Source of the DNA: Agelas oroides
Lineage: Eukaryota; Porifera; Demospongiae; Agelasida; Agelasidae
Assembly: GCA_949130485.1 (NCBI GenBank)
Contig: OX422183.1
Span: forward strand, 4,104,136 to 4,168,135
Direction of reading: 5' to 3'
DNA: 64,000 nt
Every line of letters starts with the position of its first letter. The stretch's first letter is position 1. Both the position numbers and the translations under genes were made by a program. Below are positions 41,842-64,000 of this stretch, piece by piece. Under the pieces are notes generated by a model, which worked only from the letters and a program-made list of their open reading frames with translations, had not been told where the DNA came from and did no database searches.

Positions 41842-42238
41842 ATGGGGATTGATCTTGCCACATGGCGGGCTCGTATTGGGCTCAACTACTACCACATGTG
41901 TCGCCCTCTCCAGACCAGGTGGAGAAGCAGTGGTGGTTGGCTGTACCAGCCTGGGGTGGCCAGCTGGGGGGTGGGGGAGGTCATGAATGACACACCCCTG
42001 GTACTCAAGGGCTGCATGGCAGTTGTTGCTCTATCACTGATACTGCAGTATGTAGTCCACTCCTGGTCCAAGCTGAAGGGGAGGGGTGGCAAGGTGCGCT
42101 GCCACTGGCAGGGGTTCACTTCTCAAGTGAAGGTGACGGTGGATGGTGGGGGGACCCTGTTGCTCAGAGCCATTGTGGTGATGATACCTCTACTGCTGGT
42201 GATAGCAGGGGACGTGGAAACAAACCCAGGACCAGAAG
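41842..42238 (+). CDS. ANK-A exon 1: two-helix module ending in 2A motif
   Basis: 132 codons plus one base. The helix MIPLLLVIA runs directly into GDVETNPGP. Unspliced, the frame would add EGTNNHQ and stop, so intron retention would release the module alone. The donor GAAG|GTAC is phase 1, as in ANK-B. Confidence 0.85.
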
Positions 42239-45200
42239 GTACAAATAATCATCAATAAGCATGTTTGCTCAGCAGAATTGTTGAAGGAATATTATAAAGT
42301 GCGGTAACTTGACCCATAAGGATCATCTTAGTGCAAGATAAAATAATTGTGCCGCATGGGTCCAGCTAGTCTGTATACTGTATAGCAGTTGCAATGTATG
42401 ACCACGCCCCTACAATTTTATGCATGGAAATGGTTACCCTGCCAAGGAATTCAGCGTGCACTTGAACATTGAAACTATGGTAAAAGGCTACCACACTTAT
42501 GAAAATGTATGGGTCATTGTTGGCAAACAGCTGCCATGCCAAAGGGAGCGAGCTAATTCCAAGGATCCTGTCACAGTTTCAGTCACAAAAGCCGAGTTGA
42601 TCGTAGGTCATGTTCTAGGAAACAGTTTGCTCAATGCTTTGCTGAGTATAGGTGGATAAATTCTCTATTGAGTTACTGGATCCACGGCTTGACAGCAATG
42701 TGCTTGGCTTGCTTAACTCGCCATCAGCAAGAAATTTTCAGAGGAAGAAATTTACGTGAAATTGCAAAAATTTCTCCCTTGTGAAAATTTCTCACTATAC
42801 GGTTAGTAGTATGGCCCAATAACACACCAATGGGTGATGAACTTAAGTGGCTACTCAAACGGAGGTGAGTGTATTTTCAAGAGTTATGTTTAGTCTTGTG
42901 AAATTAGACTTTCACACGAAAAGTAGGAGATTAAAACTATTCCCATCATACAAGTATTCTAGTCCAAGCAACGCCTCTCTTGTCATACACCTACTTACTG
43001 CTGATGTTTAATCGTGAAAATTGCTACAATTTCTGCCTTGCACTATACAGTACTAGAATGGCCCCAAAACACACCAATGAGTGATGAACTTAAGTGGCTA
43101 CTCAAACGGAGTACTTTGCTATGAGTAGTCTCGCAAAACCAGACTTTCATGCGAAAAGTAGGGGATTAAAGCCTGAAATTATGCTCACCCCATTAGTATT
43201 CTAGTCCAAGCAACACCTCTCTTGTCATGCACCTACTTATATAATAGCAGCAAATGTTATCTGCATTCATTTGTTTGTTTCACCTCTTTGTGAAACTTCT
43301 GCTTCTGCAATATTTTGTTTCACATCACCACATGTACTACAGTGTACATCAGTGAACGTAATTTCGACCCTTTGCAATAACCTCATTCGAAAAGGGGGGG
43401 CAGGTTTTATTTTGAGGATTATGGTGTATTTTAGCCTTGTTTCCAGGCCCAAAGAGGAGGAGCCTTCATACCCAGGGTTTCATACAGAGGGGGGGAGGGG
43501 CCCTGGAATTCCCCCCCCCCCCCCCCCAGAAATCTTGAAATTGAGTATGGTTATTATTGTTGTGCTATCAATATTAGCTATTTAATTTACATGTTACTGG
43601 ACATAAGTATACGTCATCAAAATGTTTGGAAAGTTTGTCCCAGATTACGTCAGAAGCAATCTGAGAGGATCTGAATTCCTGGGGGGGGGGCATGCCCCCA
43701 GACCCCCCTAGTAGGCACACACGCTTACACGTGCGTGAGTGTGTTTTTGCACGCTACTATCATCCTGCTACCATCCTGTTTTCCCCCTCCCAACTCAAAA
43801 TCCTGTATGAAACCCTGATACCTGTAAATTGTGTTTACATGTGCAGTACCGACATTGAAAGCTGCCATCAATGCACTGCATTCCGTGAGTTACAAGTGGT
43901 ATAATATTGGAGTGCAATTGGAAGTTCCAACCTTTCAACTCAAAAACATTGACAAGAAGTCAAGTGACTTAATGGACCAGCTGCGTGATACCCTAGACTA
44001 CTGGATGAGCAAGGTACCTTCCCCCTCCTGGAGGCTTATTGTTGATGCACTGAAAGCTCCGAGTGTTGGTGAGAACCGGTTATCTAAGGCAATAGAAGAG
44101 GAATATTGTGATCCAAAGGAACAAAGTGGCTGCAATGAATCAAGAGCTTCAGTTCAAACCAAGCGTCACCAAGGTAATATACTACGTATGCTTTTGCCGT
44201 CTGGATTTCAAATCCGTGCTCTTTCTTTTGCAGAAGTTGGCAACAAGAAAACTTCAGAAGGAACATCCTTTGCTGCTGCACCAGGCACTATGCTCACAAC
44301 AGAAAGCTCTACCATGCCATTACAGCATACAAAGGAGGAACCAAATTGTCCTACCAAAGTGGAGGAGAGTGAAGGTATTGTGGTTTAACCTGTTATCAAG
44401 GGAAAGACTAAGTTTGAAACCCATGAATATGAGTTGTGTGCTACCAATATTTATAAAGTAGTATGCCAGTGAATATTTTTAGCTGTAACTTCTGCAGAAT
44501 TTCATGATTACACTCTCCTGAATCAGCATTGCATTCAGAAAAGGCAATCTCATAATTGTTCTACAGAAAGCCTTACCACCAGTTCAGCAAGGCACAGAAG
44601 CAGTACCAGCCCTCTTCCAAATGAGGCGTCTGTGAAGCCACCTTTTGGATGTGGGTGTGGCAAGTGCACATTCTTCAGCTTCATAGAGAGAGGCTGTCCA
44701 ATACCCATCCCCTCAGCAAGCTCCTTCCCCTACCTTGACCTCAGTGGACTCACTCATGAGCAGCAGCAGGAACTCAGAGGAAGGCTTTGGTCTGAGTCTC
44801 GAGAGATAATGATACGATTCCAAAAGCTAGTGTCAGCAACAATCAAATCATTGAAGAGGCGCTGTGTACCACTGGATGATCTTGTGTCACATATTATGAC
44901 TCTTGGAGCATTTGACCCTGTGTTCAAGGAGCCACAAGTGCCAGTGTTTTGTCATTGTTTGAAAGAATTGAAAACTGCAGGCACTATACCAAAAATTTTC
45001 CTAATTCTGAATGACTACTTTTCTTTTTTCAACTACCACATCATTGAGCACATAATTGAAGAACTTGGCACAGAGGAAGATAAAACTGAGCTACAGAGGT
45101 ATAAGAAATATTTTAATCAGTACGCAAAACGAAGGATCTTTGAATGCCTGCCAGAGTTCGGACCAGTCAGTGACGCTGACCATGCTGATATCTTTGTGAA

Positions 45201-48096
45201 ACTGGACTCACAGTATGACAACTACACCATTGTACAAATTGAGGGCTTCCGTCATAAACTCAGTGATATCCTACGTGTTTCACCGCAAGGTGTCCTGCGT
45301 CTCTGTCGAGTAGATAAAGGTTGTTTTCAATTGATGCTTCAAGTGCCAGCATTTGTACAACAGGAGATATTTCCACTGTCCAGAAAGCAGGAGAAGACTC
45401 TGGCAGCTGAGGGTGTTATCAGGCTCACATCTGGGAAATACCAGTTCCTAGTAAGGTTTGTGTGTGCTTCTAATAATTGTCCCTGCATCAGTAACATTTT
45501 TCTGCATGTAGATTGCATTTGGAATGAGGCATGGATGCTGTTGCCATATAATTATATGTTATGTGCTTTGCTCCTCACAGAAAGATGAGACATCACAAGC
45601 CGGAGTTGGTATGGCTCTATTATTAGCAAAACTATTCTCGTGTTCTGTCATTCTTTGGATTGACTGTGCTTTTCCATTTCACAGAAAAGAAACACCAGCG
45701 TGATCCTGATGATGATTCAGGTATGGGTCCCAGCATATTCACTGACACAAAGAGCACTACTTTTTCTGATGTAAGCTGCTACTGCTACCTCCCCCAATAC
45801 ATGCATGTATTGTAGTGTGGTCACTCTTGCATATACCTTCATTCTCCTCTGCAAGGATCGTCTGGACAAAGAACTGAAAGAATTGGACTATGAATTGAGA
45901 GTACAGGGTCTTATAGAAACAGCATCCTCAAAATTGTCTGGGAGTGTCTTAGAGCTCTACTCTGCACTAATAATGGGACAGTTAGAGCATGTCAGATTTC
46001 TTATTGAGAAGAAGCACTGCAACCCAATGCAGCAAGATCAGGATGGCGTTGCTCCCTTACATGTGGCAGCAGTCAAAGGGAATGTGCAGGTGTTCAAGTA
46101 TTTTATCACTGAGAGAAACTGCAACCCAGCATGTCCAGGCCCACTTGGCTTAACACCACTTCATTTCGCTAGTCAAGGAGGTCATCTGGATGTGGTCAAG
46201 TATCTGGTTCTTGAACAGCAGATCGATCCATTGTGTGAGGATCAGTATGGAAGTACTCCACTACATAGGGCTTGTGTAGGTGGTTGTCAGGCAGTTGTTG
46301 AGTTTCTTACTTCAGAACATGAAAAATATATTCCCATCACAGAGCTTGTGAGTGATCTCAAAAACAAATGGAACAGCACACCTCTTCACATTGCAGTAGT
46401 ACATGGTCATTTGGACATACTCACATTTTTTATCTCTGATCGCAACTGTGACCCAAACCTTCCAGGTCCATGGGGTGGAACACTTCTTCATCATGCTGCT
46501 GGGTTTGGTCATTTGCACATAGTTAAGTATTTAACTGATGAGCAAGGCTGCAATCCATCATGTTTGGATGAAAATAAGTACACTCCACTTCATTGTGCTA
46601 CCACAAAGGGGTACACAGACATTGTGAAGTTTCTTACTCTGGAGATGAAGCGCCGTCACTTGTGGAGGTATTCTCTGTATCAGCAAAGTTCTCTCCACAT
46701 AGCAGCATTAGGTGGTCATATAGACATAATTAAGTTTCTTACTTGTGAGATGCATTGCGACCCAACAAGTAGAAATGCTAACAATGACACTGCTCTACAT
46801 CTGGCAGTAGGTAAAGGGCATTTAGACATAGTGAAATTCTTCATCTCTAGTTTAAACCTTGATGTAAACGTTTCAGGTCATGATGGTGCAACTCCTCTTC
46901 ACTATGCTGCTTGGTTTGGTCACCTGCACATAGTCAAGTATTTAACTGATGAGCAAGAGTGCAATCCATCATGTCTGGATGACTTCAAATGCACTCCACT
47001 TCACTGGGCTGCCTTGAAGGGACACATTGATATTGTGAAGTTGCTGACTGTGGAGAAGCACTGTAACCCAATGTCAACAAATCTCCATGGCAATGCGGTT
47101 CTTCACATTGCAGTACAGTGTGGTCACTTAGACATAGTTAAATTTCTTATTGAGGAGCAGAAATGTCCCCCAGACATTCCAGGACTACTTAACCTGTCTC
47201 CATTCCAAATGGCTTTACGTATTAATCACCCTGACATTGCTCAGTATCTACAGGAGCACAGTGTAATACCTTACATATATACTGCTGTAGCTATGATGGA
47301 ACAGCTCAAGTATTTTACTTACAAACAAGGCAACAAGCAATTTCTGAATGAAATACGGAAGTGCATTCCACTTCACTATGCTGTCCTAGCGGGGCACATG
47401 AACAATGTAAGGTTCCTTACGGTGGAGAAGCACTATGATCCAATGTATAGAGATCCTCGGTATCAGAACACTTCTCTCCATGTTGCAGCTCTAGGTGGTC
47501 ATATTCACATAGTTAGGTTCCTCACTCTTGAGATGCACTGTGATCCAAAAAGTAGAAATGCTAAAAATGAAACTGCTCTACATCTAGCAGTAATGGAAGG
47601 ACATTTGGACATAATCCAGTTTTTCATCTCTGACCTAAACTGTGACCCTAATATTCTAGGTCAGGATGCTGCAACTCCTCTCCACTATGCGGCTGCATTT
47701 GGTCATCTGCTCATAGTCAAGTATTTGATCCACGAACAAGGCTGCAATCCATCATCTTGGGATGAACACAAGTGTACTCCACTTCACTGTGCTGCTATCA
47801 AGGGGCACATGGATATTGTGAAGTTTCTTACTATTGAAAAGCGCTGTGACCCAATGTCACAAGATAATTTTTGCAGGACTGTCCTTTATGTTGCAGCAGG
47901 GCATGGCCAATTAGAAGTAGTTAAATTTCTGATTGAGGAGCTGAAATGTCCTCCAGATATCCCAGGATTGTTGAACACAACCCCACTTCAAATCTCCATT
48001 TGTTTGAATCGCTCTGAGATTGCTCAGTATCTATGGAAGCATAGGCTAATACGAACTGCTATAGCAGCGATGAAACAGCTTGAACTCTTGGAATAG
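41842..48096 (+). CDS. ANK-A: 2A-like peptide + Death domain + CGCGKC domain + ankyrin array
   Basis: Coding exons 41842-42238, 43847-44173, 44234-44374, 44498-45450, 45581-45608, 45685-45770 and 45856-48096 join in perfect phase to 4173 nt (1390 residues plus stop). Exon 1: two hydrophobic helices (about residues 60-80 and 110-125), then GDVETNPGP, the 2A ribosome-skipping consensus, predicting separation between Gly130 and Pro131. Exon 2: a Death domain (WYNIGVQLEVP, then SWRLIVDALKAPSVGE). Exon 3: a Ser/Thr-rich linker. Exon 4: a conserved domain opening with CGCGKCTFFSFIERGCP that I cannot name. Exon 7: about 20 ankyrin repeats. Death plus ankyrin points to intracellular signalling or innate immunity; that is inference. 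Start chosen at MGIDLATW, just after the acceptor and conserved in ANK-B. Confidence 0.88.
42389..42659 (+). pseudogene. HIRAN-like pseudo-exon in ANK-A intron 1
   Basis: Acceptor tatagcag in the phase expected after exon 1, then VAMYDHAPT. After a frameshift the frame reads NIETMVKGYHTYENVW, VGKQLPCQRERANSKD, VTVSVTKAELIVGHV. The pattern vkGYHtYxxvW..vGexLpcxrExxNxxDxxxVxV....VGHV is that of HIRAN-like modules. The same frameshift is in ANK-B, so decay predates the duplication. Confidence 0.6.
43473..43817. mobile_element. CAGGGTTTCATACAGA element, 5-bp TSD, absent from ANK-B
   Basis: Ends CAGGGTTTCATACAGAGG / CCTGTATGAAACCCTG, flanks ATACC on both sides; lies in ANK-A intron 1 just before the Death exon. 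ANK-B lacks it at the matching position (about 59585). Confidence 0.82.
43847..44173 (+). CDS. ANK-A exon 2: Death domain
   Basis: Reads VPTLKAAINAL...WYNIGVQLEVP...LRDTLDYWMSK...SWRLIVDALKAPSVGENRLSKAIEEEYC. The spacing of the two Trp residues and the final IEEEYC match the six-helix Death fold used in homotypic signalling. The exon starts and ends in phase 1, so it can be shuffled as a unit. Confidence 0.88.
44498..45450 (+). CDS. ANK-A exon 4: linker plus CGCGKC domain
   Basis: About 50 variable residues, then PPFGCGCGKCTFFSFIERGC (four closely spaced Cys, possibly metal-binding). A long helical region follows with DLVSHIMTLGAFDPVFKEP, DYFSFFNYHIIEHIIEELGT and a C-terminal half with FRHKLSDILRV and LRLCRVDKGCFQLM. 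It is strongly conserved in ANK-B. I cannot assign it to a named family. Confidence 0.8.
45856..48096 (+). CDS. ANK-A exon 7: about 20 ankyrin repeats
   Basis: 746 residues. After a short acidic/Leu helix come repeats of about 34 residues with TPLHxAAxxGHxDIVKFL and an unusual conserved HCDP/NCNP tail. Two stretches (about residues 275-480 and 530-746 of the exon) are paralogous to each other, including the degenerate C-terminal cap. Confidence 0.9.
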   Translation, partial: DRLDKELKELDYELRVQGLIETASSKLSGSVLELYSALIMGQLEHVRFLIEKKHCNPMQQDQDGVAPLHVAAVKGNVQVFKYFITERNCNPACPGPLGLTPLHFASQGGHLDVVKYLVLEQQIDPLCEDQYGSTPLHRACVGGCQAVVEFLTSEHEKYIPITELVSDLKNKWNSTPLHIAVVHGHLDILTFFISDRNCDPNLPGPWGGTLLHHAAGFGHLHIVKYLTDEQGCNPSCLDENKYTPLHCATTKGYTDIVKFLTLEMKRRHLWRYSLYQQSSLHIAALGGHIDIIKFLTCEMHCDPTSRNANNDTALHLAVGKGHLDIVKFFISSLNLDVNVSGHDGATPLHYAAWFGHLHIVKYLTDEQECNPSCLDDFKCTPLHWAALKGHIDIVKLLTVEKHCNPMSTNLHGNAVLHIAVQCGHLDIVKFLIEEQKCPPDIPGLLNLSPFQMALRINHPDIAQYLQEHSVIPYIYTAVAMMEQLKYFTYKQGNKQFLNEIRKCIPLHYAVLAGHMNNVRFLTVEKHYDPMYRDPRYQNTSLHVAALGGHIHIVRFLTLEMHCDPKSRNAKNETALHLAVMEGHLDIIQFFISDLNCDPNILGQDAATPLHYAAAFGHLLIVKYLIHEQGCNPSSWDEHKCTPLHCAAIKGHMDIVKFLTIEKRCDPMSQDNFCRTVLYVAAGHGQLEVVKFLIEELKCPPDIPGLLNTTPLQISICLNRSEIAQYLWKHRLIRTAIAAMKQLELLE

Positions 48097-51452: not shown

Positions 51453-53914
51453 CCCCACTGCAAATATATTGCAGCTCCAATCAGATCGCAGAACGTCACG
51501 GGAATGTAATAAGAAAAGTAGACTCCAGAGTATACTCCAGTCTTTTTCACTGTCACAAGTTGTACATACCCCTACCCACACAAACTCCAATGGCCACGCC
51601 TCTCTAATTGATTTGGCTCTTGTGTCAAACAAAACACAGCTTCTTGACTGCTCCGTAGTTCCACCTCTCGCAAATGCAGACCACAATGGCCTTGAACTCT
51701 TCCTTAAATGGAAGCACTGTGACAAACAAGTACGCATAACACCAAGAACAGTTTGGAGGTATAAGGATGCAGACTACAGAAAAGCATGTCAGATGATTGA
51801 TGAAACAGACTGGGATGGCCTCCTCCACAATGATGATATTGACTGCTCTGCCATCAACTGGCACAACAGGTTCATGGAAATCATGTCTACTTGCATTCCA
51901 CAACAATCACTGAAACGCAGGAGGAATGTGCCATGGCTTACAAAGAACATTATTCGACACATAAGAATGCGAAATGCTGCATTTCAAGCTGCTAGGGGAT
52001 CAGCTAAGCCTGCACAATACTCCAAATTCAGAAAACTGCGCAACAAGGTTTTGAAAATGATCCGAAATGCCAAGTCATCCTATTTCAAGAATCTAAATCC
52101 TAGAAACAAAAAACAATTTTGGAAAGCTGTTAAATACCTGAACAAACAACAGTCAACCATCCCAACGCTCCACTATCACGATACTGCTGCTGAATCTGAC
52201 TCTGAGAAAGCTAGTCTGCTCAATGAGTGTTTCTCTGCCTGTTTCAACAGAGACATTCCTCCTCTCTCACCTACAGATAATGACCATCACACTGTGCATT
52301 TCAGTCCATGCTCAGATGAGCTCCTTTGTACAGCTGATGAAGTTCTTTTTCTCATAATGTCCCTGGACCCATCAAAAGCTAATGGGCCTGATGGAATCTC
52401 AGCTCAAATGCTTAAAGGTACAGCACACAGCATTGCTCCATCTCTCACCAAACTTTTCAATATCTCCATTAGTCAAGGTCGCTTCCCTGAGTGCTGGAAA
52501 ACATCTTCTGTTGTTCCAATTCCTAAATCTACAAATCGCAGTGAAGCTACCGACTACAGACCCATTTCCTTACTCTCAGTAGTAAGCAAAATGTTGGAGC
52601 GACATTTTCACCAGTATGTCACCAAACATCTCAATGAACACCACCCACTATCCAACAAACAATGGGGCTTCCAGTCTGGCAAGTCAACAGTTACAGCTCT
52701 CCTCTCTGTCACTCATGATTGGTTTCAAACACTCGAGGCTGGACAAGAAGTGTGTTCCATCTTTTTTGACCTCAGAAAGGCCTTCGACTCTGTTCCTCAT
52801 AGACCACTGGTAGATAAATTAGCCAACCTTGGACTTGATGCTCATGCCCTTTCATGGATCACCAGCTATCTGACTAACCGGAAGCAACATGTGGTTGTGG
52901 GTGGAGAATCATCGCTGGACACACCTGTTCTCTCTGGTGTACCTCAAGGCTCTGTGCTGGGCCCACTGCTATTTCTTGTTTACATTGATGATGTTTCTGA
53001 TGTTCTCTTATCAGATGGAAGCACACTCAATCTTTATGCAGATGACATGCTGTTGTACAAACCTGTAAAATCGATTGAAGACATTCACCACCTGCAAATG
53101 GACATTGATTGTATCAGTGAGTGGGTAAGCTGCAATAAGCTAACACTTAATCCTACCAAGTGCAAGACCATGGTAATCTCACGAAAAAGGAACTCTGTCC
53201 AACCCTATGCACAGTTTGTTTTGAATGGCAGGCCACTTGAGCAGGTAGAGACTTTCAAGTACTTAGGAATCCTCCTCTCATCAGACCTCTCATGGTCTGC
53301 ACATATTGAGTCTATCTGCACCAAGGCAAGAAAACTGATTGGTCTGCTGTACAGGAGGTTCTATGGCAATATTGATGACCACAGCCTACTTGAACTGTAC
53401 AGTGTACTTGTACGTCCTCACCTTGAGTATGCTGCCCCTGTCTGGGATCCACACCTCACTAAAGACACTAACAAACTTGAAAGTGTCCAAAAGTTTGCAT
53501 TAAAAATGTGTTTGAAACAATGGGACCTAGGATACCACGACCTTCTTGACCTGTCTCAGTTCCCTACTCTTGAGAATCGTAGACTATACTTAAAGCTTTG
53601 TACTCTTTATAAAATTATACATGGTTACTTTTACTTTCCTCCTAATGTATTTGTACCTCAAGTAAGTAGACAAAGTTATTCCTTACCTTTAATACATCAA
53701 CCACATGCACATACCAATGCCTTCCAGTCGTCTTTTGTACCTAGCTCTGTTTCTGTTTGGAATCACTTACCCCATGAAGCACTTGCAGCACATTCCATTA
53801 ATTCATTTAAATCACTCGTTGCACCCTTGTTTTTGTATTCATAACTGGTTACACACTCGTATTAGCTTACCAGCTATTTGTGTATCCTTGCATTAATGCA
53901 AAAAGTTTTATAGA

Positions 53915-58182: not shown

Positions 58183-58585
58183 ATGGGTATTGATCTTGCC
58201 ACGTGGCGTGCTCGAATTGGGCTCAACTACTACCACATGTGTCGCCCCGTCCAGACCAGGTGGAGAAGCAGTGGTGGTCAGCTGTACCAGCCTGGGGTAG
58301 CCAGCTGGGGGGTGGGGGAGGTTATGAATGACACACCCCTGGTGCTCAAGGGCTGCATGGCAGTTGTTGCTCTATCACTGATACTGCAGTATGTAGTCCA
58401 TTCCTGGTCCAAGCTGAAGGGGAGGGGTGGGGGTGGCAAGGTGCACTGCCACTGGCAGGGGTTCACTTCTCAAGTGAAGGCGACTGTGGATGGTGGGGGG
58501 ACCCTGCTGCTCAGAGCTATTATGGTGATGATACCTCTACTGCTAGTGATAGCGGGTGACGTGGAAACAAACCCAGGGCCTGAAG
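58183..58585 (+). CDS. ANK-B exon 1: two-helix module ending in 2A motif
   Basis: 134 codons plus one base, two Gly longer than in ANK-A (KLKGRGGGGK). LLLVIAGDVETNPGP is identical in protein to ANK-A although five of the last 19 codons carry silent changes. Confidence 0.85.
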
Positions 58586-61500
58586 GTACAGATAATCATC
58601 AATAAGCATGTTTGCTCAGCAGAATTGTTGAATATTATGAAGTGTGGTAACTTGACCCATAAGAATCATCTTAGTGCATGATAATTGTGCCGTATGGCTC
58701 AAGCAAGTCTGTATAACAGTTGCAATGTATGACCACGCCCCTACAATTTTATTCATGGAAATGGTTACCCTGCCAAGGAATTCAGTGTGCACTTGAACAT
58801 TGAAACTATGATAAAAGGCTACCACACTTATGAAAATGTATGGGTCATTGTTGGCGAACAACTGCCATGCCAAAGGGAACGAGCTGATTCCAAGGATTCC
58901 GTCACAGTTTCAGTGACAAAAGCCGAGTTGATCATAAGTCATGTTCTAGGAAACAGTTTGCTCCATGTTTTTCATGACTAGGTGGGTCAATTCTCTGTCG
59001 AGTTACTGGATCCACGGCTTGACAGCAAGGCTTGCTCAACTCACCATCAGCAAGAAATTTTCAGAGGAAGAAATTTTTGCATGAAGAAATTTATATGAGC
59101 TGGTGTTTAATCGTGAAAATTGCTAAAAATTTCTCCCTGGTGAAAATTTCTCACTATACGGTACTAGAATGGCCTGATGACACACCAATGGGTGATGAAC
59201 TTAAGTGGCTACTCAAACAGAGGTGAGTGTATTTTCAAGAGTTATGATTGGCCTCATGAAACCAGACTTTCACGGGAAAAGTAGATCAAACTGCCCACCC
59301 CATAATTATACAAGTATTCTAGTCCAAGCAACGCCTCTCTTGTCATGCACCTACTTATACAGTAGCAGCAAATGCTGCCTGCATTCTTTTGTTTGTTTCA
59401 CCTCTTTCACACTTCTGCTTTTGCAATACTTTGTTTTACATCACCACATTTACTACAGAGTACATCAGTGAGCATAATTTCAACCTTTTGCTCATTCGGG
59501 GGGGGGGCGGATTGCTTTTGAGGATTGGCCTATTTTGAGGAATATGGTGTGTAAGTTAGCTGCCCAAAGAGGAGGAGCCTTGATTCCTGTTAATTGTGTT
59601 TACAGGTGCAGTACCAACATTGAAAGATGCCATCAATGCACTGTATTCAGTGTGCCCCAAATGGTATAATATTGGAGTGCAATTAGAAGTTCCAACCTTT
59701 CAACTTAAAAGCATTGAGAAGAAAACAAGTGACTCAATGGACCAGCTGCGTGATACCCTAGACTACTGGATGAGCAAGGTACCTTCCCCCTCCTGGAGGC
59801 ATATTGTTGATGCACTGAAAGCTCCGAGTGTTGGTGAGAACAGGTTAGCTAAGGCAATAGAAGAGGAATATTGTGATTCAAAGGAACAAAGCGGCTGCAA
59901 TGAGTCAAGAGCTTCAGTTCAAACCAAGCATCACCAAGGTAATGATACTATGTATGCTTTTGCCGTCTGGATTTCAAGTCTGTACTCTTTCTTTTGCAGA
60001 AGTTCCCAACCAAGGCAACATTAAAACTTCAGAAGGAACATCCTTTGCTGCTGCACCAGGCAACTTGCTCACAGTAGAAACCTCTACCATGCCAGTACAG
60101 CATACAAGGGAGGAGTCAGAATGTCCTACCAAAATGGAGAAGAGTGAAGGTATTGTGGTTTAACCCAATTTAGGCTGTTATCAAGGGAAAGACTTTAAGT
60201 TTGAAACACACGGATGAGTTGTGTGCTACCAATATTTATAAAGATATAAGTAGTATCACATTATTTTGCAGTACTTGTACCCTTTTAACTATAACGTCTG
60301 CAGAAGTTCATGATCAGACTGCTGCTAGCTCGAATGAAACACCACTGAAAGATCAGATGACACAGTCCCGTGCATGTTCTACAGAAAGCTCTACCACCAG
60401 TACAGCAAAGCAGAGAAGCAGTGCCAACCCCCCTCCAAGTGAGATGTCTCAGAGGCCACCATTTGGGTGTGGGTGTGGCAAGTGCACATTCTTCAGCTTC
60501 ATAGAGAGGGGCTGTCCAACACCCATCCCCTCAGCAAGCTCCTTCCCCTACCTTGACCTCAGTGGACTCATGCATGAGCAGCGACAGGAACTCAGGGGAA
60601 GGCTTTGGTCTGAGTCTCAAAAAATAATGATGCAATTCCAGGATCTAGTATCAGCAACAATCAAGTCATTCAAGAGGCGATGCATACCACTGGATGAGCT
60701 TGTTTCACACGTCATGACTCTTGGAGCATTTTACCCTGTGTTCAAGGAGCCCCAAGTGCCATTATTTCAATATTGTTTCCAAAAATTGGAAGCTGCAGAC
60801 ACAATCCCAAGGGTTTTCCTGGTCCTCAAAGACTACTTTTCTTTCTTCAACTACCACATCATTGAACACATCATCAAAGAACTTGGTACAGAAGAAGATA
60901 AAGCTGAGCTACAGAGGTACAAAGATGATTTTAACCAATATGCAAAGCGAAGGGTCTTCGAATGCCTGCCAGAATTCGGACCAATCAGCGATGATAACCA
61001 TGCTGATATTTTTGTTAAAGTAGACTCCCTGTATGAGAACTACACTGTTGTACAAATTGAGGGATTCCGTCATAAACTCAGTGAAATCCTACATCTTTCA
61101 TCCCAAGGCATTCTGCGTCTCTGTCGAGTAGACAAAGGATGTTTTCAGCTGATGTTCCAGGTACCCTCCTTTGTGCAAAAAGAGGTATTTCCACTTTCCA
61201 GAGAGCAAGAAAAAGCTCTGGAAGCCAAGGGTGTGATCAAATTTACATGTGGAGTGTACCAGTTCCTAGATGAAGAGTACACTGAGGAATCTCAGCTCAA
61301 TGTTGATGCTAGTGGTAAGTGAATGCATGTAATTATACCACCCTCAAAGCTCATCCATCTTCAGATTTCTTTGCATACCTCTCTTCCCTCACAGGTGAAG
61401 TGGAGGACATTGAACCCGTATGGAAGAAACCACAACTTAACAATGAGGCAGAACCTGATGGTGCGTGCTTGATATCTAACCTATCGTTTAAAACTACTAC

Positions 61501-64000
61501 CTTGATAGAATCATACCAAACTGTTCTGTGGCATATATAGTTATTCTTTTATACTAATAGTTGAAGATGTTGATGCCTATGAATCAATGAAAAGGGAAAC
61601 TCAAGGTGATATTGACGAAGACTCAGCCATTGGGTTCAGTGTAGTTACAGGTGGAAAGAGCACTACATTATCTGAGGCAAGTGTCTTCCAACCACACAGT
61701 ACAATTATGTGTATTTTTGGTAGCTACCCATCCTTTTTCTTTTGCACAATAGGATCCTCTCGACAAAGAGATAGAGGAACTGGACTATGAACTGAAAGTG
61801 CAGGGTCTTACAGAAAATACATTCTTCCACAAGTCTGGGAGTGGTTTAGAACTTCACCATGCAGTAGCAGTGGGAGACTTAGAGTATGTCAAGTTTCTTG
61901 TTGAGAAGAAGCACTGCAACCCAATGCAAAAAGATCAGGATGGCATTGCTGCTCTTCATGTGGCAGCAATTAAAGGAAACGTGAGGATGTTGAAATATTT
62001 CATAACAGAAAGAAACTGCAGTCCAGTATGTCCAGGCTCTCTCAGCTTAACACCCCTTCATTTAGCTAGTGGACAAGGTCATCTTGATATGGTCAAGTAT
62101 TTGGTTATCGAACAGCAGATGGACCCACTTTGTGAAGATGTGTACAGAAACACCCCATTGCATAGAGCTTGTGCTGGTGGCTTTCAGGAAGTTGTTGAGG
62201 TTCTTACTTCAGAACTTAAAAAGTACACCCCCATCACAGAAATTGTAAGTGACCTCAAGAATATATGGAACAGCACACCACTTCACAGTGCAGTAAGTAA
62301 CGGACATTTGGGCATAGTCCAATTCTTCATCTCTGATCAGAATTGTGACCCAAATATTCCAGGTCAGTATGGTAGAACTCCTCTTCACTGTGCTGCTGAG
62401 TTTGGTCACCTGGAATCTGTTAAGTATTTAGCTGATGAGCAAGGCTGCGATCTGTCATGTTTGGATGAACACAAATACACCCCACTTCACTGTGCTGCCA
62501 TGAAAGGACACACTGACATTGCCAAGTTCCTCACCATTGAGATGCACTGTGACCCAACATGTAGAAGTACTGACAATGTCACTGCTCTACATCTAGCTGT
62601 AGTACGTGGACATTTGGATATAGTCCGATTCTTCGTCTCTGATCAGGATTGTGACCCAAGTATTCCAGGTCAGTACGGTAGAACTCCTCTTCACTATGCT
62701 GCTGAGTTTGGTCATCTACACATAGTAATGTATTTAACGGAGGAGCAAGGCTGCAATCCTTTATGTCTAGCTGAACACAATGAAACTCCACTTCACTATG
62801 CTGCCTGGAAGGGACACATAGACATTGTGAAGTTCCTTACTGTAGAGAAAGACTGTGACCCAATGTGTAAAGATTTGAACTTGAACACTCCTCTACATGT
62901 TGCAGCAGCCAATGGTCATAATGACACAGTAAGGTTTCTCACTATTGAAATGCGCTGTAATCCAACAAGTAGAAATACTGAAGATATCACTGCTGTACAT
63001 CTGGCAATAGTACATGGAAATTTTGATATAGCTCAATTTTTAATCTCTAGTCAAAACTGTGACCCAAGTATTCCAGGTCAGTATGATAAAATGTTTCTTC
63101 ACTATGCTGCTGAGTTTGGTCATCTACACATAGTCAAGTATTTAGCTGATGAGGAGGGCTGCAATCCATCATGTTTGGATGATAACAAGTATACTCCACT
63201 TCACTACGCTGCAATGAAGGGGCACATTGACATTGTGAAATTTCTTACTGTGGAGAAACACTGTGATCCAATGTGCAGAGATATAGATCTGAACACTCCT
63301 CTTCACATTGCAGCAGAAAACAATCATAAGGACATAGTAGAGTTCCTCACTGTTGAGATGAACTGCGACCTAACAAGTAGAAATGTTTTCAGTGACACTG
63401 CTATCCATCTAGCTGTAGTGAATGGACATTTGGACATAGTCCAATTCTTCATCTCTGATCAGCACTGTGGTCCAAACATTGCAGGTAAACATGGTAAAAC
63501 ACCTCTTCACTATGCTGCTACATTTGGTCATTTGCACATAGTCAAGTATTTGACTGATTGGCAATGCTGCAATCTATCATGTCTAGCTGAATACAATGAA
63601 ACTCCACTTCACTATGCTGCCTGGAAAGGACATATGGACATTGTAAAGTTCCTTACTGTAGAGAAACATTGTGACCCAATGTGTAACGATTTGAGTCTAA
63701 ATACTCCTCTTCATGTTGCAGCAGCAAACAATCATAGAGGCGTAGTAGAGTTCCTTGCTGTTGAAATGCACTGTGATCCAACAAGTAGAAACTCTGGTAA
63801 TAACACTGCTCTACATATAGTAATAGTACATGGACATTTGGATATAGTCCGGTTCTTCATCTCCGATCACTACTGTGACCCAAGCCTTCCAGGTCAGAAT
63901 GGTAGAACTCCTCTTCACTATGCTGCTGAGTTTGGTCATCTGCACATAGTCAAGTATTTGATTGATGAGCAAGGCTGTGACCCATCATGTTTGGCTGAAC
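58183..64000 (+). CDS. ANK-B: paralogue of ANK-A, truncated by the window end
   Basis: Exons 58183-58585, 59612-59938, 60000-60149, 60304-61314, 61395-61460, 61561-61676 and 61753 to beyond 64000, all phase-compatible. Architecture as ANK-A: two-helix module and GDVETNPGP (separation predicted between Gly132 and Pro133), Death domain, CGCGKC domain, linker exons, ankyrin array. Differences: exon 4 continues past the point where ANK-A has a donor, the linker exons 5 and 6 differ in length and sequence, and exon 6 ends at a GC donor (GAG|GCAAGT). The ankyrin exon is open for at least 749 codons with no stop and has a regular four-repeat super-unit absent from ANK-A. Likely expressed together or divergently with ANK-A, but no promoter signal is visible. 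Confidence 0.86.
58720..58981 (+). pseudogene. HIRAN-like pseudo-exon in ANK-B intron 1
   Basis: Same fossil as in ANK-A: acceptor tataacag, VAMYDHAPT, a frameshift, then NIETMIKGYHTYENVW, VGEQLPCQRERADSKD and ending SHVLGNSLLHVFHD and a stop. Confidence 0.58.
59612..59938 (+). CDS. ANK-B exon 2: Death domain
   Basis: Same length (327 nt) and phases as ANK-A exon 2; WYNIGVQLEVPTFQL and SWRHIVDALKAPSVGENRL are kept. An upstream AG (gtttacag) would add two residues in frame, so an alternative acceptor is possible. Confidence 0.86.
60304..61314 (+). CDS. ANK-B exon 4: linker plus CGCGKC domain
   Basis: Homologous to ANK-A exon 4, but reads through the ANK-A donor site into DEEYTEESQLNVDASG before a GTAAGT donor. 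The CGCGKCTFFSFIERGC core is identical. Confidence 0.82.
61753..64000 (+). CDS. ANK-B exon 7: ankyrin array, open at window end
   Basis: Begins GAT CCT CTC GAC after acceptor ttgcacaatag. Repeats of 34 residues (102 nt). From 62691 the array has an exact 408-nt super-period (landmark TCACTATGCT at 62691, 63099, 63507, 63915), i.e. blocks of four repeats. Confidence 0.87.

Follow-up and report, generated by a model that had tools for sequence, protein, structure and literature searches.

A predicted StopGo/2A skip site ends the first exon of Death-domain/ankyrin genes in the sponge Agelas oroides

The window analysed here, a stretch of 64,000 nucleotides from Agelas oroides (GenBank assembly GCA_949130485.1, contig OX422183.1, positions 4,104,136 to 4,168,135 of the forward strand), contains two copies of an ankyrin-repeat gene, each with the octapeptide DVETNPGP encoded at the end of its first exon. 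The locus raises the question of whether this octapeptide acts as a StopGo/2A element, in which case one mRNA would give rise to two proteins, and of what these proteins would be. The original prediction, made from the sequence alone, placed a 2A motif at the end of exon 1 in both genes, directly after a hydrophobic stretch, and this is what was found: DVETNPGP is encoded at 42211-42234 and at 58558-58581, both on the forward strand and both behind LLLVIAG. The features of the window are as follows.

41842..42238, forward strand: exon 1 of copy 1, with the ATG, a 123-residue module and the 2A core; phase-1 end, donor GT at 42239
42001..42057, forward strand: hydrophobic segment 1, residues 54-72 (Kyte-Doolittle; helix 53-80 in a low-confidence model)
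42154..42210, forward strand: hydrophobic segment 2, residues 105-123, including LLLVIAG at 42190-42210 (Kyte-Doolittle; helix 102-127 in a low-confidence model)
42211..42234, forward strand: DVETNPGP, the StopGo/2A core (residues 124-131), with the skip predicted to fall after Gly (42229-42231) and before Pro (42232-42234)
43847..44173, forward strand: exon 2, Death domain, phase 1-1 (gene model; Pfam and profile matches)
44234..44374, forward strand: exon 3, linker, phase 1-1 (gene model)
44498..45450, forward strand: exon 4 (953 bases), with a CGCGKC region, a helical part and a TRADD-N-like alpha/beta part, 44722-45435 aligned (gene model, structure model, Pfam matches of relatives)
45581..45608, forward strand: exon 5, short linker (gene model; predicted splice sites)
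45685..45770, forward strand: exon 6, short linker (gene model; predicted splice sites)
45856..48096, forward strand: exon 7, ankyrin repeats and stop (gene model; strong Pfam ankyrin matches)
58183..58585, forward strand: exon 1 of copy 2 (sequence)
58558..58581, forward strand: StopGo/2A core DVETNPGP of copy 2 (sequence match; LLLVIAG precedes it, as in copy 1)
59612..59938, forward strand: Death exon of copy 2 (sequence match, in-frame join)
61798..64000, forward strand: ankyrin exon of copy 2, given from the first matched base, its frame still open where the window stops

Exon 1 of copy 1 comprises 132 codons and one further base, and its product starts with MGIDLATWRARIG and ends with LLLVIAG-DVETNPGP-E. 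In the two window copies the ATG is preceded by TTTACAG or TTTTCAG, which resemble a 3' splice site, and we infer that this ATG is the initiator of exon 1. The first residues, MGIDLAT (41842-41862), would fit the weak N-myristoylation consensus, and they are absent from the MPPNG module type. No Pfam domain was matched in the module, the predicted structure of which is of low confidence (mean pLDDT 51.7), and no RNA family was found in positions 41000-64000 of the window. As originally stated, the two copies differ at five of the last 19 codons of exon 1, all synonymously. Over the whole of exon 1 there are 17 synonymous and 5 nonsynonymous codon differences, and in the Death exon 9 and 12, respectively.

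The gene model of copy 1 encodes 1390 residues, ends at 48096 and has GT-AG borders at every intron. A phase-1 donor located 4 bases past the core joins exon 1 in frame to the Death exon at 43847 in a constructed join. The predicted in-phase join to a Death domain therefore stood as regards phase and frame, but the 'Death' exon of the window scores below the Pfam cut-off (PF00531; 17.0 versus 22.6 bits). Each of the 23 Death exons aligned, including that of the window, matches Pfam Death at E<=0.1 (best 4.7e-7), and the Death-exon profile matches 13 solved sequences, all of them death-domain proteins of the FADD or PIDD type. The TRADD-like_N domain (PF20694) was matched by exon 4 of five of ten members (best 5.4e-5), the window member not being one of the five, and there was no match in PDB. 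The model of exon 4 (mean pLDDT 70.9) ends in the order strand-helix-strand-strand-two short helices-strand, and this is compatible with the four-stranded, RRM-like TRADD-N fold described in PMC8195603. No NACHT, LRR, endonuclease or reverse transcriptase was found by Pfam in the gene model of copy 1. The second copy has the same order of module, 2A, Death, TRADD-N-like and ankyrin parts. A LINE-type reverse-transcriptase ORF of 791 aa (assigned by eye), without a 2A, lies between both Death genes on the forward strand (window 51469-53844).

An in-frame join could be constructed at all 25 loci for which both exons were available, 23 of these joins being of phase 1 with the donor 4 or 13 bases past the core. 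With the Death frame shifted, an acceptor fitted in 5 and 6 of the 25 loci, in a control that used one donor per locus versus several in the test. Where 2A and Death are separated by 70 nt or less, the two are in frame in 4 of 4 pairs, and in locus L029 both lie within a single open frame. The sequence P0002 was considered as evidence for a spliced transcript and set aside, as it looks, by eye, unspliced at intron 1.

At the level of the DNA pattern, D[VIM]ExNPGP has 285 matches in the whole genome (places listed for 251) and the reversed pattern has none. A protein search with the module gave at least 86 genome matches, at least 66 of them full length, these counts being lower bounds obtained by scoring the best 150 of 190 candidates. 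The core is kept by all 43 full-length modules on contig C1 and, over all contigs, by 64 of the 65 checked among the 66 full-length modules (63 by listed place and the 64th, L048, by reading). The single checked full-length copy with an altered core (L047, C3:504202-504603) ends in DVARNPGP, and its downstream TRADD-N-like exon is still an open frame. This C3-set module had been picked by similarity, and it is counted against the explanation preferred below. A frame shift inside the core was found in one module fragment. A natural DMETNPGP variant occurs in a full-length module at C1:4240748.

A second, divergent module type (MPPNGPEEWRARIGHW...), found on C7, C8 and other contigs, gave 39 matches, of which 34 are full length and 32 of these end in DVETNPGP. 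The two types are approximately 35% identical and have in common the W, R, R and G of WRARIG and the 2A end. The C3 cluster and one C10 copy represent the first type at 55-58% identity. When seven loci of the C3/C10 kind were inspected by eye, ankyrin repeats were seen downstream in all seven, a TRADD-N-like exon in six and a recognisable Death-like exon in five; three of those Death-like exons from the C3 set all match Pfam Death, two of them above the cut-off. As judged by hydropathy, two hydrophobic segments are present in each of three modules taken from the C1, C3 and C7/C8 sets, the second segment abutting the core in the C1 and C7/C8 modules and stopping three residues short of it in the C3 module. 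The original prediction described the motif and module as they are, but missed the TRADD-N-related exon, the family of 285 motifs and the second module type of the same plan. Another 2A context was seen at L001, L002 and L003 (C1, ~0.61-0.65 Mb), where a short VVVVLLLLLSG-DVETNPGP lies 0.6-1.5 kb upstream of Death exons; this context resembles the sea-urchin type more closely than does the WRARIG module.

The positions of the motifs relative to Death-like exons were compared for the best 150 of 727 candidate exons, which are those most similar to the window's, so that the Death counts are lower bounds. One hundred of the 150 are preceded by a same-strand 2A at a distance of 5 kb or less, and none has one downstream or antisense, where an even spread of motifs, which the figure assumes, would give ~0.3% for each. 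Outside C1, the proportion with a same-strand upstream 2A within 5 kb is 35 of 76 scored exons. Extending the distance to 10 kb gave 110 upstream on the same strand, 7 downstream and none antisense. Viewed from the motifs, 64 of 86 cores on C1 are followed on the same strand by a scored Death-like exon no more than 5 kb away, and none has one upstream or antisense; for all placed motifs, the downstream figure is 97 of 251. Counted against the preferred explanation are the 50 of 150 scored Death-like exons with no placed 2A within 5 kb, the 154 of 251 placed 2A motifs with no listed Death exon within that distance, and the fact that at least one placed 2A is borne by a LINE. The latter was seen at L042:1-1554 (forward strand), a truncated LINE in which, as read by eye, a PHD-like finger and an endonuclease-like region come after DIEKNPGP. 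For NACHT exons, 4 of 105 scored have a same-strand 2A within 5 kb upstream, with none downstream or antisense, which suggests that a few NLR genes of this genome carry a 2A as in sea urchin. The motifs concerned (C17:6868910, C2:935345, C3:15626547 and C11:980683) precede their same-strand NACHT exons by 2.4 to 4.0 kb.

The dN/dS analysis across exon 1 paralogues proposed with the original prediction gave an omega of ~0.45 for the whole module, with the fixed codons of the core changed only silently. It was performed with 26 of 30 modules fetched by similarity, three having been dropped as the same loci under other ids and one as identical; the 30 were the best matches to a query that included the core, and all 30 had the core. 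In the 26 modules of the C1 set, the seven fixed core codons showed no nonsynonymous and 18 synonymous changes, whereas the remainder of the module had 219 and 175 (Fisher p=7.6e-7). At the free x codon of the core, there were five nonsynonymous and no synonymous changes (residues T, L, R and M), and LLLVIAG showed 4 and 28, while the 20 alignment columns ahead of it are near neutral. This pattern is the one to be expected of a skip site rather than of an ordinary membrane helix. The fixed core codons of the C3 set showed no nonsynonymous and 12 synonymous changes, but its nine sequences had been preselected for an intact core, so that these counts depend on that choice; the seven codons just ahead of the core showed 9 and 1, which is counted against the preferred explanation. 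Gene conversion among close tandem paralogues could also inflate conservation.

The explanation that we prefer, with a probability of roughly 80%, is that exon 1 is a reusable 5' cassette, a small membrane-type module ending in a working StopGo/2A, through which one mRNA would be translated into a membrane peptide and, separately, a soluble Death/ankyrin protein. The original prediction of two separate products is supported, at the level of sequence, by codon selection with drift at x, by the L-rich context ending in AG and by the genome-wide linkage to Death exons. After splicing, ribosomes would translate the module first, with its conserved N-terminal stretch and two hydrophobic segments. 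The Gly-Pro bond would then not be formed at NPG|P and the module would be released, and the ribosomes would continue with a separate protein that starts with proline and includes the Death, TRADD-N-like and ankyrin-repeat parts. The first product would probably be held at a membrane and the second would be soluble, and the minor part left unskipped would be a Death protein anchored in the membrane. Such a fused form upon failed skipping is plausible by analogy with sea urchin (PMC4981915).

Both window copies carry an octapeptide of the form (D/G/C/N)(V/I)ExNPGP and a suitable upstream context (LLLVIAG, compared by eye with the published motif description), and in the 26 modules of the C1 set the core is constrained with x free. 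By core, context and selection, the 2A of exon 1 is a predicted StopGo element, and in its predicted working it resembles the 2A signal sequences of sea-urchin NLRs. As described by Li et al. 2026 (PMC12846837), StopGo motifs 2 and 6 have an L-rich stretch ending in (A/S/C)G ahead of p12=D, and an example of motif 6 is active in reticulocyte lysate. The Agelas exon shares with these viral motifs the canonical octapeptide and an L-rich stretch whose final AG precedes D, but belongs to a cellular multi-exon gene family, cellular use of StopGo being called rare in the same source, and has mostly T at p15, whereas motifs 2 and 6 go with S. The SpNLR2A proteins of sea urchin have N-terminal 2A-like signal sequences and a dual location, and a relative with T at x shows ~80% recoding (Roulston et al. 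2016, PMC4981915). Given this recoding and the agreement of the AG-ending L-rich context with motifs 2 and 6, mostly separate products are expected from the Agelas genes. Common to SpNLR2A and the Agelas genes are an N-terminal D(V/I)ExNPGP behind a hydrophobic stretch, membership of a large innate-immune gene family and T at x, as in SpNLR2A6 (-VET-NPG). However, the sea-urchin sequences comprise 26 residues ahead of NLR (NACHT) proteins, whereas the Agelas module has 123 conserved residues in an exon of its own and is followed by Death, TRADD-N-like and ankyrin parts with no NACHT or LRR (compared with PMC4981915). The Agelas cassette is therefore not a member of the SpNLR2A set, being neither short nor followed by NACHT. 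The predicted downstream plan is that of the TRADD-N proteins of Amphimedon, 357 in number, in most of which a Death-like unit precedes TRADD-N and ankyrin repeats are among the commonest C-termini (Kaur et al. 2021, PMC8195603). Counted against the preferred explanation are the low confidence of the module's structure model and the finding that some sequences inhibit 2A during translocation into the ER (PMC2978324).

An alternative, possible but considerably less probable, is a dual targeting like that in sea urchin, in which skipping would be deliberately incomplete, exon 1 would serve mainly as a signal or anchor, the balance of membrane-fused and cytosolic forms would be selected and the released module would have no job. 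This has a precedent in the 2A signal sequences of sea-urchin NLRs, with their ~80% recoding and dual location (PMC4981915), and the two hydrophobic segments of the Agelas module would suit it. However, the first 20 residues of the module, which are not hydrophobic, are constrained as strongly as the core (omega ~0.10), and across 12 aligned modules drawn from the two types, which are ~35% identical, W8, R9, R11 and G13 never vary. A mere signal sequence would not need such a constraint, which suggests instead that the module has a function of its own.

That NPGP is a fossil rather than a skip site, with the gene encoding an ordinary membrane-anchored Death/ankyrin receptor, is very unlikely. 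Membrane-bound sponge NLRs have been proposed (PMC12909245), but the seven fixed codons have changed only silently with drift confined to x, and near-misses with A, S or T in place of a proline number 1 (last proline) and 0 (first proline) genome-wide against 285 true motifs, although each near-miss pattern permits three times as many codons as the true motif; the fossil reading was rejected on this codon and near-miss evidence. The least probable reading, that exon 1 is left over from a retroelement or virus and does not belong to the Death gene, can draw on the known LINEs with 2A (cited in PMC12846837 and PMC4981915) and on the truncated LINE with 2A and PHD-like finger in this genome (L042), but was dismissed because the gene model has no reverse transcriptase, because no relative was found in collections of viral and prokaryotic contigs (which may lack near records), and because Death exons are linked to the motif on the same strand and can be joined to it in frame. 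As in APE-type LINEs with 2A (Odon et al. 2013), the 2A of exon 1 shares a polypeptide frame with other domains, but the gene has no endonuclease or reverse transcriptase and hence is not a LINE.

Relatives of the cassette were also sought in a public protein set, where the profile of the first module matched at least 908 proteins at E<=1 (8000 candidates scored) and that of the second type 129 proteins at E<=0.001. Among the matches listed, the core is kept in 119 of 120 relatives of the first type, two of which are the window's own, and in 117 of 120 of the second, the exceptions being a single DVKTNPGP and three frames that are truncated or shifted. These lists do not give the number of species, and many of the listed relatives are probably from the same species as the window. 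The sequence P0001, which came from another search, was rejected as an independent species because its module is identical to that of L029 of this genome.

Among the papers listed in literature searches, none is on 2A in sponge genes, a result that does not take in the survey of cellular 2As by Rao et al. 2025 (Cell Rep. 44, 115822) or the work of Odon et al. 2013. The terms '2A-like', 'skipping' and 'NPGP' are absent from the main text of PMC8195603, and '2A-like' in PMC5890393 was discarded as prior art, being merely part of a protein name.

If skipping is real, the 285 motifs, the occurrence of 97 of the 251 with known places no more than 5 kb ahead of a Death-like exon and the exact purifying selection in the tested family would make it a regular route to animal proteins of the innate-immune type. 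Relative to the 2A of sea-urchin NLRs, what differs here is a conserved module of its own ahead of the 2A, and the many natural 2A variants in this genome offer material with which to probe the purpose of skipping. Tentatively, StopGo may be the standard architecture of the Death-domain immune repertoire of this animal: a phase-1 cassette would be shuffled before Death/TRADD-N/ankyrin genes and a few NACHT genes, providing a conserved membrane peptide with a function of its own in a fixed ratio to each soluble sensor. As the state of the translation machinery affects skipping, such a pair of module and sensor could report interference with translation by parasites.
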